NCBI RefSeq assembly: GCF_011008905.1
Contig: NZ_JAAIVI010000022.1
Span: 115,414-179,413 of the forward strand
Reading direction: 5' to 3'
DNA length: 64,000 nt
Origin: Wenzhouxiangella sp. XN201
GTDB lineage: Bacteria > Pseudomonadota > Gammaproteobacteria > Xanthomonadales > Wenzhouxiangellaceae
Shown piece after piece: positions 15,501 through 61,465 of the stretch. How positions within the stretch are numbered: the stretch's first letter is position 1; each line of letters opens with the position of its first letter. The position numbers were made by a program, and so were the translations under genes. The notes under the pieces were generated by a model, which was not told the DNA's origin, ran no database searches, and was given only the letters and a program-made list of their open reading frames with translations.

Positions 15501-16182
15501 TACCCGTCAGCCCTATGATCGGGACTCGGGACTCGGGACTCGGGACTCGCACCTTCTTACGTAATTGCGCCAGCTCATGTTCTGTAATGGTTCCGTTCTC
15601 GATGGCAGAAAGCTTCCGCGCGACTAGCTGCGTGTCGATCCGGCCTTCCGAGTCCCGAGTCCCGAGTCCCGAGTCCCGTTCACCAGCACCTGCCGAAGTC
15701 GATCCCGCCTGTCGCTCTTCCCGAGCCTGTCGGGTCCGCTCCACCAGATCCCCAATCATCTCCTTGAGCCCCATCTTCATCCCGTGCTCGGGGTGGTAGA
15801 TGCGAGTGACTCCATAGTCCTCGAGTTCGCGGATTTCATCGAGCGTGATCGTGCCGCCGCCTCCGCCGAAGACCTTGATGTGACTGGCGCCGAGCTCGTC
15901 GAGCATGTCGACCATGTACTTGAAATACTCGATGTGCCCGCCCTGGTAGGAACTGACCGCAATGGCATCAGCATCCTCGCAGATGGCCGCGCGCACGATG
16001 TCGGCCACCGAGCGGTTGTGTCCCAGGTGGATGACTTCGCAGCCCTCGGCCTGGATCAGTCGGCGCATCAGGTTGATGGCGGCATCGTGTCCGTCGAACA
16101 GGCTGGCGGCCGTCACCATCCGCAGCGGCAGATCATTCTTGGCGCCGGGCGCCCGCGACAGGGTTTCTGCAGTCTGGCTCAT
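12589..16182 (-). CDS. icmF: Fused isobutyryl-CoA mutase IcmF (B12 domain, G-protein chaperone, mutase)
   Basis: IcmF is a cobalamin-dependent mutase that interconverts short branched and linear acyl-CoAs such as isobutyryl- and butyryl-CoA, with its own MeaB-like GTPase for cofactor loading. The 1197 residues hold, in order, the B12-binding domain ([12 protein letters not shown] with the cobalt-ligand His at 32), a G domain (Walker [10 protein letters not shown] near 227; NKFD near the end of the domain) and the TIM-barrel mutase ([35 protein letters not shown]). Length is somewhat above typical because four linker segments contain GAGTCCC/GGGACTC heptamer arrays, two of them flanking the linker just before the P-loop. 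The reading frame stays open through all arrays. It fits the branched-chain catabolism seen at 34-52 kb. A regulator gene is divergent upstream. Confidence 0.95.
14557..14584. repeat. GGGACTC heptamer array inside icmF (4 copies)
   Basis: Four exact tandem GGGACTC units on the + strand, preceded by a degenerate GGATTC and followed by GCGGAGTCC. They encode residues about 533-542 of IcmF ([11 protein letters not shown]) in a linker ahead of the mutase domain. The orientation is opposite to the array at 14831. Confidence 0.9.
14831..14855. repeat. GAGTCCC heptamers inside icmF (2 copies, spaced)
   Basis: Two GAGTCCC units at 14831-14837 and 14849-14855, separated by 11 bases, followed by degenerate copies (GAATCCGATCCC). 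They encode the low-complexity stretch around residues 440-450 ([12 protein letters not shown]). They are inverted relative to the array at 14557. Confidence 0.75.
15521..15548. repeat. GGGACTC heptamer array inside icmF (4 copies)
   Basis: Four exact tandem GGGACTC units, encoding residues 212-221 ([10 protein letters not shown]) directly before the Walker A loop of the G domain. Together with the oppositely oriented array at 15650-15677 they form an inverted pair about 157 bases long. Confidence 0.92.
15650..15677. repeat. GAGTCCC heptamer array inside icmF (4 copies)
   Basis: Four exact tandem GAGTCCC units encoding residues 169-178 ([10 protein letters not shown]), between the B12 domain and the G domain. 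Inverse complement of the array at 15521-15548. The 101 bases between them encode ordinary IcmF linker. Confidence 0.92.
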
Positions 16183-35331: not shown

Positions 35332-35344
35332 AGAACTCGAGTAC

Positions 35345-35480
35345 TTGAAACCGCAGATTGCGCAGATTCACGCAGATAGAGACCGAAAAAGCCTTAATCT
35401 CATTGGCCTTGAGATCTTCGAGTCCGGGCCATTCGCTCCTCCGGAGCAATCTGCGTACATCTGCGAAATCTGCGGTTTCA
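35345..35480. repeat. GCAGATT-type inverted-repeat element (type B)
   Basis: The left arm at 35345-35380 begins TTGAAACCGCAGATT and has three CGCAGATT units at 9- and 10-base steps. The right arm at about 35447-35480 is its inverse complement, ending in CTGCGGTTTCA. The interior of roughly 66 bases has no gene. Its outer sequence GAAACC is shared with the ACGGAA-type elements. It lies between leucine dehydrogenase and isovaleryl-CoA dehydrogenase. Confidence 0.85.
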
Positions 35481-35511
35481 TGAACTCTGCCATCTAACGA
35501 GGCACCAGACG

Positions 35512-43144: not shown

Positions 43145-43650
43145 TGAAAAACCTTTAGAACGCAAAGCAGCGAAGCAGCAAAGAACGCAAAGAAGAGATG
43201 AACTAAAAGCCTACAGGCATGAATCGATCGGAACTGGAAGGTCTTGCGAGAGAGACAGTGGACTGTGTATTCAAGGTGCACAGCGCTCTTGGGCCTGGTC
43301 TACTGGAGTCGGCTTATCAGGCATGCTTGGCGCATGAGCTCCAAAAACGCGGGTACAGGGTTGCTACAGAAGTTCTGCTCCCACTGCGTTACGACGGACT
43401 GGAGATCGAAAAAGCATTTCGGGTGGACATGCTGGTCCATGACACTGTTCTAATCGAGAACAAAGTGACGCAAGAGGTTCTGCCGGTTCACAAATCTCAG
43501 GTCTTTACCTACTTGAAATTGACGGGCCTTCAGTTAGGACTCTTAATCAATTGGAATACACGACTCATCAAGCACGGCATTTCTCGCGTCGTCAATAACC
43601 TGTAGGTCCTTCTTTGCGTTCTTCGCTGCTTCGCTGCTTTGCGTTCCAAA
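43145..43650 (+). mobile_element. GCAAAG-type inverted-repeat element carrying a GxxExxY gene (type C)
   Basis: Left arm at 43158-43196 reads AACGCAAAG followed by CAGCGAAGCAGC, AAAG and AACGCAAAG units; the right arm at 43609-43647 is nearly its perfect inverse complement over about 39 bases, and similarity extends outward (AAAACCTTTAG against its counterpart). Between the arms is one gene of 128 codons in the same orientation as neighbours and little else. The arms are built of tandem 8-9 base units as in the other elements. No clear target duplication is visible. Confidence 0.8.
43219..43605 (+). CDS. GxxExxY protein, PD-(D/E)XK nuclease-like (PDDEXK_3)
   Basis: A 128-residue protein with the family motif GLLESAY at residues 27-33 and a PD-(D/E)XK-like core: Asp 70 in FRVDML, then IENK at 79-82 (E80-x-K82) and QVFTY with Gln 94 and Tyr 98. 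These are the usual nuclease positions, although activity is not shown for the family as far as I know. Base composition is visibly less GC-rich than its neighbours, suggesting transfer. It lies alone between inverted tandem-repeat arms and separates HMG-CoA lyase from the HSD10-like dehydrogenase. I propose it acts on, or helps spread, such repeats; this is inference. Confidence 0.88.
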   Translation: MNRSELEGLARETVDCVFKVHSALGPGLLESAYQACLAHELQKRGYRVATEVLLPLRYDGLEIEKAFRVDMLVHDTVLIENKVTQEVLPVHKSQVFTYLKLTGLQLGLLINWNTRLIKHGISRVVNNL

Positions 43651-43683
43651 GATTTTGATTTTCGAACAACCAGGAGAAAACCA

Positions 43684-44469: not shown

Positions 44470-44543
44470 ATAAACCACGGAATACACGGACTCTGCATAA
44501 ATCCAGTAAGGCCCTCCGTGCCTTTCCGTGTTTTCCGTGGTTA
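44470..44543. repeat. ACGGAA-type inverted-repeat element (type A, copy 2)
   Basis: The left arm holds AAACCACGGAATACACGGA (44472-44490); the right arm at 44514-44543 has three TTTCCGTG units ending CCGTGGTTA. The interior is only about 23 bases, so the whole can fold as a single hairpin between the SDR and MscS genes. Confidence 0.85.
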
Positions 44544-44651: not shown

Positions 44652-45500
44652 ATGGAAAGCTTGCAAGAGTGGTACGCCAACCTCGAAACGGCGCAGATCC
44701 TGGCGATCGCCTGGAAGGTGATCGGTGCACTGCTGATTTTCATCATTGGCCGCTGGGTCGCCAAGGCCATCGCCGCGCTGGCACGCAAGACCCTGAGCAA
44801 GCGTCAACTCGATGCCATGCTGATTGCTTTCCTTGGCACCATCCTCTACGGTCTGCTGCTGCTGTGCGTCATTCTGGCTTCCATCAGCTACCTTGGCGTC
44901 TCCGTAACGCCAATGATCGCGATCCTTGGTGGCGCCGCCCTGGCTGTCGGCCTGGCGCTGCAGAACAGCCTGTCGAACTTCGCTTCCGGGGTGATGCTGG
45001 TCGGGTTCAGGCCCTTCACCAAGGGGCACTTCGTCGAGGCCGGTGGCGTGTCGGGCACGGTCGAGCGTGTCGGTCTTTTTCATTCGCATCTGGTCACGCC
45101 GGACAATCGAAGCGTGATCGTGCCCAACAGCGAGATCACTTCCAGCCCGATCACCAACTACTCGGCCTTTGAAACACGCCGCTGCGACCTGCTGATCGGC
45201 GTAGGTTACGGTGATGATCTCAAGGTCGCGCGAGACACTATTTGGAAGGTGATCACCGACCACGATAAGGTACTCAAGGATCCCGAACCGGCCATCCTGG
45301 TCATGGACCTGGCCGATTCCAGCGTCAACTTCGCAGTGAGGCCATGGGTGCTGACTTCCGATTACTGGGTCGTGCGCAGCGAGCTGCTCGAAAAGATCAA
45401 GACCGAACTCGAAGCCGCCGGCTGCTCGATCCCGTTCCCCCAGAGAACGATCCATCATCTCAACGAAACCCCAGCCAGGACCGGGACCAACTCGGACTGA
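44652..45500 (+). CDS. mscS: Small-conductance mechanosensitive channel (MscS family)
   Basis: A 282-residue MscS protein with a first membrane helix (WKVIGALLIFIIGRWVAKAIA), a second region and the pore helix GGAALAVGLALQNSLSNFASGVML. The following beta domain, VGFRPFTKGHFVEAGGVSGTVERVGLFHSHLVTPDNRSVIVPNSE, is in family order. The length and layout match the short E. coli type. It opens under hypo-osmotic stress to release solutes. GGGAG precedes ATG 44652. Type A elements lie on both sides. Confidence 0.94.
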   Translation: MESLQEWYANLETAQILAIAWKVIGALLIFIIGRWVAKAIAALARKTLSKRQLDAMLIAFLGTILYGLLLLCVILASISYLGVSVTPMIAILGGAALAVGLALQNSLSNFASGVMLVGFRPFTKGHFVEAGGVSGTVERVGLFHSHLVTPDNRSVIVPNSEITSSPITNYSAFETRRCDLLIGVGYGDDLKVARDTIWKVITDHDKVLKDPEPAILVMDLADSSVNFAVRPWVLTSDYWVVRSELLEKIKTELEAAGCSIPFPQRTIHHLNETPARTGTNSD

Positions 45501-45588
45501 AAACCGATGGAACCACGGAAATCACGGAAGACACGAACCTGGATTCTCCCTTCCGTGTATTCCGTGCCTTCCGTGGTTCCATGGTTTT
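45501..45588. repeat. ACGGAA-type inverted-repeat element (type A, copy 3)
   Basis: The left arm (45501-45535) reads AAACCGATGGAACCACGG and two further units; the right arm (45551-45588) ends CCGTGGTTCCATGGTTTT. The IR extends beyond the unit repeats over about 38 bases. It starts one base past the end of mscS and ends 10 bases from the convergent NYN gene. Confidence 0.88.
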
Positions 45589-45597
45589 TCGCGCCGG

Positions 45598-46432: not shown

Positions 46433-46643
46433 ACCTGGAACCACGGGAATCACGGAACACACGGAAATGGGAACAACCTGGAAAGCCCGAGAAAGTGAGT
46501 TGGGCTCGAGCAAAGTTTCAAAATCATGCCCTGACTACACGACGGGAACTCACACACTCTGAAGGCACCGCCAAAGCTGACCCGTGATCCGTCATTCTTG
46601 CATTTTTTGGTCCTTCCGTGGATTCCGTGCCTTCCGTGGTTCC
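46433..46643. repeat. ACGGAA-type inverted-repeat element (type A, copy 4)
   Basis: The left arm at 46433-46466 reads CCTGGAACCACGGGAATC and further units; the right arm at 46612-46643 is the inverse complement ending CCGTGGTTCC. The interior, about 145 bases, has no gene that I can identify and is the longest gene-free interior of this family here. The element lies between the NYN gene and the DUF2207 gene. Confidence 0.85.
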
Positions 46644-46657
46644 AACAAAAAGGGAAT

Positions 46658-49180: not shown

Positions 49181-49332
49181 ATGAAACCACGGAAGGCACG
49201 GAAGTCACGGAAAAAAACAAGAAAGCATTGCGCTCCATGGCGTACTCGCGTTCTTGTGGTTGATAGGCCCAGATTAGTTTCAGGAGAGAAACAGCGGCCT
49301 ATTCCGTGTCTTCCGCGCTTTCCGTGGCTCCA
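49181..49332. repeat. ACGGAA-type inverted-repeat element (type A, copy 5)
   Basis: The left arm at 49181-49212 begins ATGAAACCACGGAAGGC; the right arm at 49300-49332 has TTCCGTGTC, TTCCGCGC and TTTCCGTGG units. The interior of about 88 bases holds no gene. It lies between lemA and the hydrolase gene. Confidence 0.85.
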
Positions 49333-49941: not shown

Positions 49942-50021
49942 GCCACGGAAATCACGGAAGTCACTGAATCAATTAAAGACCTCGCTGCCTTTTCCGTGCA
50001 TTCCGTGTCTTCCGTGGTTCC
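49941..50021. repeat. ACGGAA-type inverted-repeat element (type A, copy 6)
   Basis: The left arm (49941-49967) starts at the last base of the hydrolase stop codon: AGCCACGGAAATCACGG. The right arm (49989-50021) has three TTCCGTG units ending CCGTGGTTCC. The interior is about 21 bases, so it can form one long hairpin between two convergent genes. Confidence 0.85.
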
Positions 50022-56711: not shown

Positions 56712-56797
56712 ATGGACCACGGAATTCACGGAAGACACGGAAGACGCGGAAAAAAGAGGTCCAGTATTCTTCCGTGCATTCGGTGCTTTCCGTGGTC
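56712..56797. repeat. ACGGAA-type inverted-repeat element (type A, copy 7)
   Basis: The left arm at 56712-56750 has four units starting ATGGACCACGGAATTC; the right arm at 56768-56797 has three units ending CCGTGGTC. The interior is about 17 bases. It lies between DUF3300 and the PhoD-type phosphatase genes. Confidence 0.83.
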
Positions 56798-61311: not shown

Positions 61312-61465
61312 ATCTGGCTGGTTGGCTGGTTGGCTGGTTGGCTGGTTGGCTGGTTCGGCAAATTATCGGCTGCCCGCCATCCTGCCGCGGCAAAGCCGCC
61401 CCGCAAGGCGGCCAGTTGTCGAACCAGACAACAAGCAAACAAGACAACCAGCCAACCAGTCCCCT
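61312..61465. repeat. TTGGCTGG-type inverted-repeat element (type D)
   Basis: The left arm holds five tandem TGGCTGGT units at about 61315-61354; the right arm at about 61413-61460 contains the inverse complement (AACCAGCCAACCAG and degenerate AACCAGACAACAAG units). The interior of about 60 bases contains its own GC-rich pairings. It lies between the helicase and the 5-oxoprolinase gene, and probably includes part of both promoters. Confidence 0.8.

Follow-up and report, generated by a model that had tools for sequence, protein, structure and literature searches.

Inverted tandem-heptamer arms around GxxExxY nuclease-family genes and a possible REPIN/RAYT-like gene-plus-repeat system

The window locus and its predicted nuclease

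The window analysed here is a stretch of 64,000 nucleotides (G000:C22:115414-179413) of the Wenzhouxiangella sp. XN201 genome, which comprises 3.13 Mb in 22 contigs. A small GxxExxY gene lies there between HMG-CoA lyase-like and short-chain dehydrogenase-like genes (names read from the translations), all on one strand, and is enclosed by a pair of inverted arms:

43148..43195, + strand: left inverted arm of the GCAAAGCAGC class, 48 nt of tandem GCRAAG units
43219..43605, + strand: GxxExxY gene, 128 aa, predicted member of the PD-(D/E)XK nuclease family
43609..43656, - strand: right inverted arm, pairing with the left arm

The arms around this 128-residue gene, given as 39 bases in a preliminary description of the locus, are confirmed at 48 nt, of which 45 are paired. 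The low GC content reported there is also borne out, with 0.499 in the gene vs 0.653 and 0.627 in two neighbouring genes. Across the window, seven inverted repeats were detected, vs 0-2 in ten order-2 Markov copies searched with the same settings.

Profile searches place the protein in PF13366 (126.5 bits, cut-off 22), the sole Pfam family to match above its cut-off, and in TIGR04256 (132.6 bits, cut-off 35). The GxxExxY motif (G27, E30, Y33) and the PD-(D/E)XK residues are both present; D70, E80, K82, Q94 and Y98, which had been read as intact from the sequence, are conserved at 98-100% in 55 proteins (the window protein included), as are G27, E30, Y33 and N111. The order of E30, D70, E80-x-K82 and Q94-xxx-Y98 presumably matches the motif arrangement of Cas4, lambda exonuclease and LHK-Exo. 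A PDB sequence search with the window protein gave two chance-level serpin matches only (E 0.8). For the AlphaFold2 model (pLDDT 95.6), the top Foldseek matches in the PDB are SSO0001 (4ic1, E 4.9e-4), which is taken here to be a Cas4 protein, and LHK-Exo (3sz4, 1.4e-3); lambda exonuclease ranks below them. These are the nearest solved folds for a protein that is smaller than any of them, and because the TM-scores are ~0.5, the predicted likeness to Cas4 and LHK-Exo is one of core fold only.

GxxExxY proteins are under purifying selection, dN/dS being 0.02-0.19 in 11 of 16 pairs where it is computable, several of them with high synonymous change. A defence role was considered for the window protein and rejected, as PADLOC gave no match to it; among 15 GxxExxY members, weak PADLOC matches were to Cas4 (3), RTasPDDEXK (2) and PDC-M36A (3). 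PHROG matches were found for some members of the family and none for the window protein.

Arms and gene-less elements

The preliminary description proposed a search for enrichment of inverted tandem arms around GxxExxY homologues, and the outcome is strongly positive. Arms were scored by local alignment of the upstream flank with the reverse complement of the downstream flank, with a threshold score of at least 30. The family occurs in 43 of 200 genomes of relatives within the order, giving 64 loci, one of which was dropped for a cut flank; 61 of the 63 testable loci have inverted arms above threshold, the remaining two being L031 and L050, and one of the 61 (L010) owes its score to a repeat other than the core type described below. 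A scan of 84,980 species confirmed 581 loci, and the 80 of these that ranked best by likeness to a GPGLLES-type subfamily, less three with cut flanks, make up a global set; arms were found at 57 of its 77 loci, 20 falling under the threshold, vs 1 of 117 neighbouring ORFs at the same loci. The 76 global loci used for a tree span 16 phyla, archaea included, as assigned from the record titles. Phylum changes on this tree number 35, between a minimum of 15 and a shuffled mean of 52, which suggests transfer between phyla on a tree of a short protein in which most forks are weak. One locus of the order set (L041, G068:C111:8548-9741) has three consecutive GxxExxY matches in the same orientation, of which two contain a stop.

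An arm is a row of the degenerate heptamer CRCNRAK, repeated in steps of mostly 8, 9 or 10 nt. At least two such cores occur in an arm of 53 of the 61 armed order loci and 54 of the 57 armed global loci, and at least three in 43 and 45, respectively; shuffled arms contain two or more in 1-2% of cases. When the arm finder is set aside and tandem cores are sought within 250 nt on both sides, they are found at 47 of 63 order loci, 60 of 77 global loci and 1 of 137 controls. The window locus is among the 16 of 63 order loci that fail this strict test, because some of its arm units read GCAGCGAAG. The core variant changes with the protein subfamily (CGCAGATGAA, CGCAGATT, CACAGATGAA, GCAAAGCAGC, CACAGAG and others), and for loci at different sites, the more similar the proteins, the more similar the arms (Spearman rho 0.29 over 52 loci, with 0 of 1000 permutations as high), so that the arms either travel with the gene or are matched to it. 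Arms can also be coding. The left arm at the carA-carB junction (L002) encodes the last residues of carA (METADERR), and in several loci (L002, L043 and L030 were examined) the start of the GxxExxY protein (MNAD) is encoded by the left arm; arms thus double as stop and start regions.

The G000 genome has five GxxExxY genes (one truncated), all armed and each with a different unit. The window also contains gene-less elements, for which no strand is given. The nine reported nearby were indeed present as a kind, the number being amended to eight of the core type:

35339..35487: gene-less element, CGCAGATT class, with arms as in the gene-bearing locus L001 of the same genome
36676..36824: gene-less element, CACGGAA class, limits combined from two analyses
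44473..44542: gene-less element, CACGGAA class, common to G011
45499..45590: gene-less element, CACGGAA class, site unoccupied in G011 and taken by different classes in G003 and G017
46436..46644: gene-less element, CACGGAA class, common to G011 including the interior (131/140 positions)
49187..49327: gene-less element, CACGGAA class
about 49944..50016: gene-less element, CACGGAA class, with concentric nested elements here in G011 and G003
56715..56797: gene-less element, CACGGAA class, common to G011

Under a stricter script the window retains six merged element places; 20 order-3 Markov copies give none. Seven of the eight elements are of the CACGGAA class and one is of the CGCAGATT class, whose gene is at L001; none has the arm class of the window gene, and the earlier suggestion that these neighbours derive from that gene does not hold, since the classes differ. 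For the CACGGAA class (13 copies examined), no gene-bearing copy was found among the five GxxExxY genes of the genome.

A wider sample of the same genome covered 464 kb of 3131 kb, made up of the window and 20 further stretches, four of which were chosen for holding GxxExxY genes. Of 46 inverted repeats in it, 37 are tandem-armed, among them five around GxxExxY genes and two that seem unrelated; in an order-3 Markov copy of the sample, five inverted repeats were found, none with two cores. The proposed kinship of gene-less elements with resident genes stands at the level of arm class, as the gene-less elements of the genome include all five classes of its GxxExxY genes. For the GCAAAGCAGC class, manual pairing gives eight inverted pairs genome-wide, one being that of the window gene and seven being gene-less and located elsewhere.

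The interiors of the gene-less copies do not resemble the GxxExxY gene, and within one core class of the genome they give, with few exceptions, no alignment above noise to each other, so that the empty copies do not have the look of internal-deletion forms of the gene. Other origins were considered and rejected. Captured host DNA was set aside for the 16 interiors searched, as each has one full match in its own genome, with the next best at E 0.04 over 22 nt. Native spacer enclosed by arms was set aside from four window sites with an element not common to G011 (35339, 36676, 45499 and 49944), where no interior sequence was seen in G011 (by eye). Nor are the interiors structured: fold z-scores for 15 of them run from -1.35 to 1.89, no better than shuffles. 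In 30 genomes of the genus, matches of at least 60 nt beyond the own genome were found for three interiors, two of them in G011 and the third in G010, along with two short matches, a count that is a lower bound since part of the candidates was scored. Spacing is more regular. Among the gene-less CGCAGATGAA pairs listed, 30 of 42 have arms 100-135 nt apart and 10 of 42 have arms 40-85 nt apart; the pairs were read from the matches listed for G018, G002 and G001 (44 pairs, taking up 88 of 111 arms, with unpaired arms left out). Gene-less arm pairs thus have two preferred spacings and mostly unrelated interiors.

Site occupancy and arm number across the genus

The preliminary description expected occupancy to vary between related strains, and between related species it does, at carA-carB, at hmgL and at other junctions. 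GxxExxY genes or remnants of unlike classes occupy the hmgL junction in 11 species of the genus; in other species it is empty or has relic arms. The sufB-sufC and oppA-oppB spacers mostly differ between related species, often by another inverted tandem element (by eye), and at window position 45499 G003 has an element of the CGCAAAG type, G017 has one of the CACCGAA type, and the site is empty in G011. Elements may also enclose one another, and concentric nesting of one arm class within another was found, for example, in G003, G011 and G029:

L315:16805-17027: arm pair within a pair of another class
L316:7876-8100: arm pair within a pair of another class
L320:17469-17659: arm pair within a pair of another class
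L330:6957-7174: arm pair within a pair of another class

By impression, such nesting looks frequent. In other species of the genus, REP-like palindromes around GTAGGTCGGGG were seen at the same junctions (L207, L209, L211-L213, L233 and L322).

The relation between a gene and the number of its arms was followed for two classes. The CGCAGATGAA pattern was searched in 30 genomes of the genus, its reversed control pattern giving zero matches. Where carA-carB contains an intact gene of this class (five genomes), arms number 23, 27, 43, 52 and 43; G027, in which the gene is degenerate, has two, and the 19 genomes in which the junction is assembled without the gene have 0-2 (G012 and G028 both 0). 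The permutation p is 3e-5, computed on 23 of the 25 junction-assembled genomes. The nearest relative, G011, has two such arms vs 23 in the window's own genome. Five further genomes have 41 (G001), 47 (G005), 5 (G029), 2 (G013) and 0 (G006) arms; the junction runs off the contig in G005 and G029, G001 and G006 give no carA-carB match, and the G013 contig lacks carA and has a TIGR02436 gene ahead of carB. The many arms of G001 and G005, in which no gene was found, count against gene dependence.

For the GCAAAGCAGC class, four genomes with the window-class gene have 16, 20, 13 and 14 arms, and 19 of the 21 other genomes in which hmgL and its downstream side are assembled have 0-2. The exceptions are G011, with 21 arms and a gene of another class at the site, and G028, with 16 and a broken gene; G012, for which no hmgL match was found, has 15. 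The permutation p is 0.001 (25 genomes), for a pattern whose reversed control gave eight matches in four genomes (G009, G011, G017 and G029). Either arms may outlive their gene, or these exceptions may weaken the link between gene and arms. Among genomes with an assembled junction, the link is clear for CGCAGATGAA; it is weaker for GCAAAGCAGC, and CACGGAA is an exception. As drawn from one genus, it includes a contribution from shared ancestry among the genomes.

A REPIN/RAYT-like reading and its alternatives

Alongside the observed association of genes with arms, the class match between gene-bearing and gene-less elements, the differing occupancy of sites, the selection on the protein and the link of gene to arm number in one class, the locus is read here, with a probability of roughly 0.6, as the gene-bearing copy within a gene-plus-repeat system of REPIN/RAYT-like action. 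The GxxExxY nuclease would recognise the heptamer cores of the arms, which are candidate binding sites, and would cut the hairpin or duplex formed by two arms. Cutting would copy or move arm pairs into other spacers, often beside or inside existing arms, and gene-less pairs of the same class, with their two preferred lengths, would form a population dependent in trans on the gene; the copy with the gene hardly moves from site to site. Recognition, cutting and movement are attributed to the nuclease because the features match those of REPINs, and it is by this analogy that the nuclease is inferred to mobilise the gene-less pairs.

REPIN/RAYT is the closest analogue, and the preliminary description's comparison with RAYT/REP systems is apt in several features, among them the gene-less pairs, their spacing and the single-copy genes. 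In the available text on Pseudomonas fluorescens, REPINs are pairs with a fixed spacing of 71 and 110 bp and a spacer less conserved than the ends, and RAYT genes are distinct single copies that are apparently unable to mobilise themselves (PMC3116915); TnpAREP, according to the part of a second source available, processes single-stranded REP in vitro (PMC8266576). Both systems have gene-less intergenic inverted pairs with fixed spacing and a variable spacer, genes that are distinct single copies (here at most 63% identical between sites, 52 loci) and, here for CGCAGATGAA in genomes with an assembled junction and with exceptions in other classes, a repeat class tied to its cognate gene. However, the enzyme here is a PF13366 PD-(D/E)XK protein with a predicted Cas4/lambda-exonuclease-like fold rather than an HUH (Y1) protein, the arms are rows of heptamer cores rather than one REP hairpin, the interiors fold no better than shuffles, and the GxxExxY gene lies inside the arms. 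The system is thus not a RAYT, since enzyme family, arm build and unstructured interior all differ.

It is improbable, if the least so of the alternatives, that the arms are instead mRNA hairpins at operon junctions, processed by the GxxExxY protein or regulating it, with gene-less arms as selected targets. Such an RNA regulon would suit the near-perfect inversion of the arms and the orientation of the gene, shared with the flanking gene in all 24 of the cases compared, which come from four sites and are not independent. However, Cas4, lambda exonuclease and LHK-Exo, the nearest folds, are enzymes that act on DNA; the same junction has unlike classes or none in related species, which is odd for conserved regulation; and window positions 34000-58000 give 0 Rfam matches.

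The terminal inverted repeats and the gene-less relatives would also be expected of a classical autonomous transposon in which the gene-bearing unit jumps and gene-less copies are internal-deletion MITEs. Two composite gene-less copies in G003 (L320:18259 and L321:3406) are alike at 217 of 240 positions, interior included, so that whole gene-less elements can evidently be copied. The gene itself behaves otherwise: no two GxxExxY genes at different sites are more than 63% identical (1224 different-site pairs, 52 loci), which argues that gene-bearing copies have not multiplied lately in the compared set. The 16 gene-less interiors, single-copy in the genome and unlike the gene, also stand against deletion derivatives, and the window protein matches 7 of 72,556 plasmid records, on which plasmid carriage was rejected. 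No target-site duplication could be demonstrated; the sole readable empty site, carA-carB, has ATG on both sides, possibly by chance. A jumping gene-bearing unit is accordingly given little credence.

No greater credence is given to a homing element, whose nuclease would cut the empty allele of one site and be copied in by repair. It would account for the recurrence of subfamilies at the same junction across genera. The empty carA-carB junction of G011 (L176, compared with L175) contains ACCGCAGATG, which resembles the arm unit of the G000 element there; as a lead, this may reflect target choice by likeness, templating or a scar. Because carA-carB is the one site to support them, target-templated arms stay a lead. 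In G017 and G003 (L319 9401-13300 vs L320), the element, together with some 100 nt of flank to either side, is 92-98% identical, vs 75-93% for most of the adjacent hmgL, which could point to a recent transfer; yet some distant flank windows are also at 0.95-1.00. Homing as a general process was rejected, since the synonymous difference of the gene is below that of every measured flank gene in only 2 of 102 same-site pairs, and it leaves the gene-less population unexplained. Least probable of all is a host-domesticated nuclease whose binding sites, the arms, are homogenised by gene conversion without mobilisation: the strong purifying selection and the closer resemblance of arms than of interiors in the orthologous elements at 44473 and 56715 (by eye) would agree with it, but presence and absence at orthologous junctions, class nesting and the near-alike composite copies call for insertion or excision.

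A parallel to the proposed REPIN/RAYT-like system is found in the TIGR02436 genes, which encode S23-like four-helix-bundle proteins. In 61 genomes of the order, 21 of 30 TIGR02436 loci (flanks L285-L314) have inverted arms over the threshold, built mostly of 7-8 nt units. In G022, G013, G034 and G038 and, by eye, in G039, such a gene adjoins carB at the carA-carB junction. Gene-less GGTTGGCT elements, which share the arm class of the one TIGR02436 gene in the window's own genome, have related interiors, and the window contains two gene-less inverted tandem elements of this other kind:

15516-15682: gene-less inverted tandem element, TIGR02436 kind
61318-61459: gene-less inverted tandem element, TIGR02436 kind

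A small ORF inside an inverted repeat is also known from the 23S rRNA intervening sequences with an S23 ORF, called selfish in the available portion of one source (PMC4990558). The S23/TIGR02436 system differs from that of GxxExxY in its unrelated protein and in its arms of mostly 7-8 nt units, which are without the CRCNRAK core (by eye).

The foldback transposons Tetris and Galileo are eukaryotic and have another transposase. They are far larger than GxxExxY elements, with the likeness, in the available text on these Drosophila transposons, that their inverted repeats are associated with tandem repeats (PMC4079207, PMC4168063). In the literature searched, which most subscription journals lie outside, the accessible text mentions GxxExxY in passing only and barely names PF13366/PDDEXK_3, and no description of the arm system was found. 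Searches for the arm strings returned animal papers only, none on bacterial repeats, and by title nothing on these arms appears in the literature on four-helix-bundle proteins, intervening sequences, foldback elements or REP/RAYT.

More tentatively, and at somewhat less than even odds, GxxExxY genes and CRCNRAK arms may constitute an undescribed class of repeat-spreading system found in many phyla, in which a Cas4-like nuclease of variable specificity would maintain and spread inverted tandem arms around interiors of fixed length and arbitrary sequence. Such a class would be convergent with REPIN/RAYT, and TIGR02436 would run a parallel system, with units of mostly 7-8 nt, at the same operon junctions.

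GxxExxY, a frequent gene name, has no assigned function, and the link to repeats gives it a testable role; the pairs of gene and arm class are ready candidate substrates for a nuclease with no target described in the literature searched. Widespread intergenic repeats would thereby gain an owner gene, and the system would offer a second, independent case of the question raised by REPINs, namely how such repeats persist in compact genomes.
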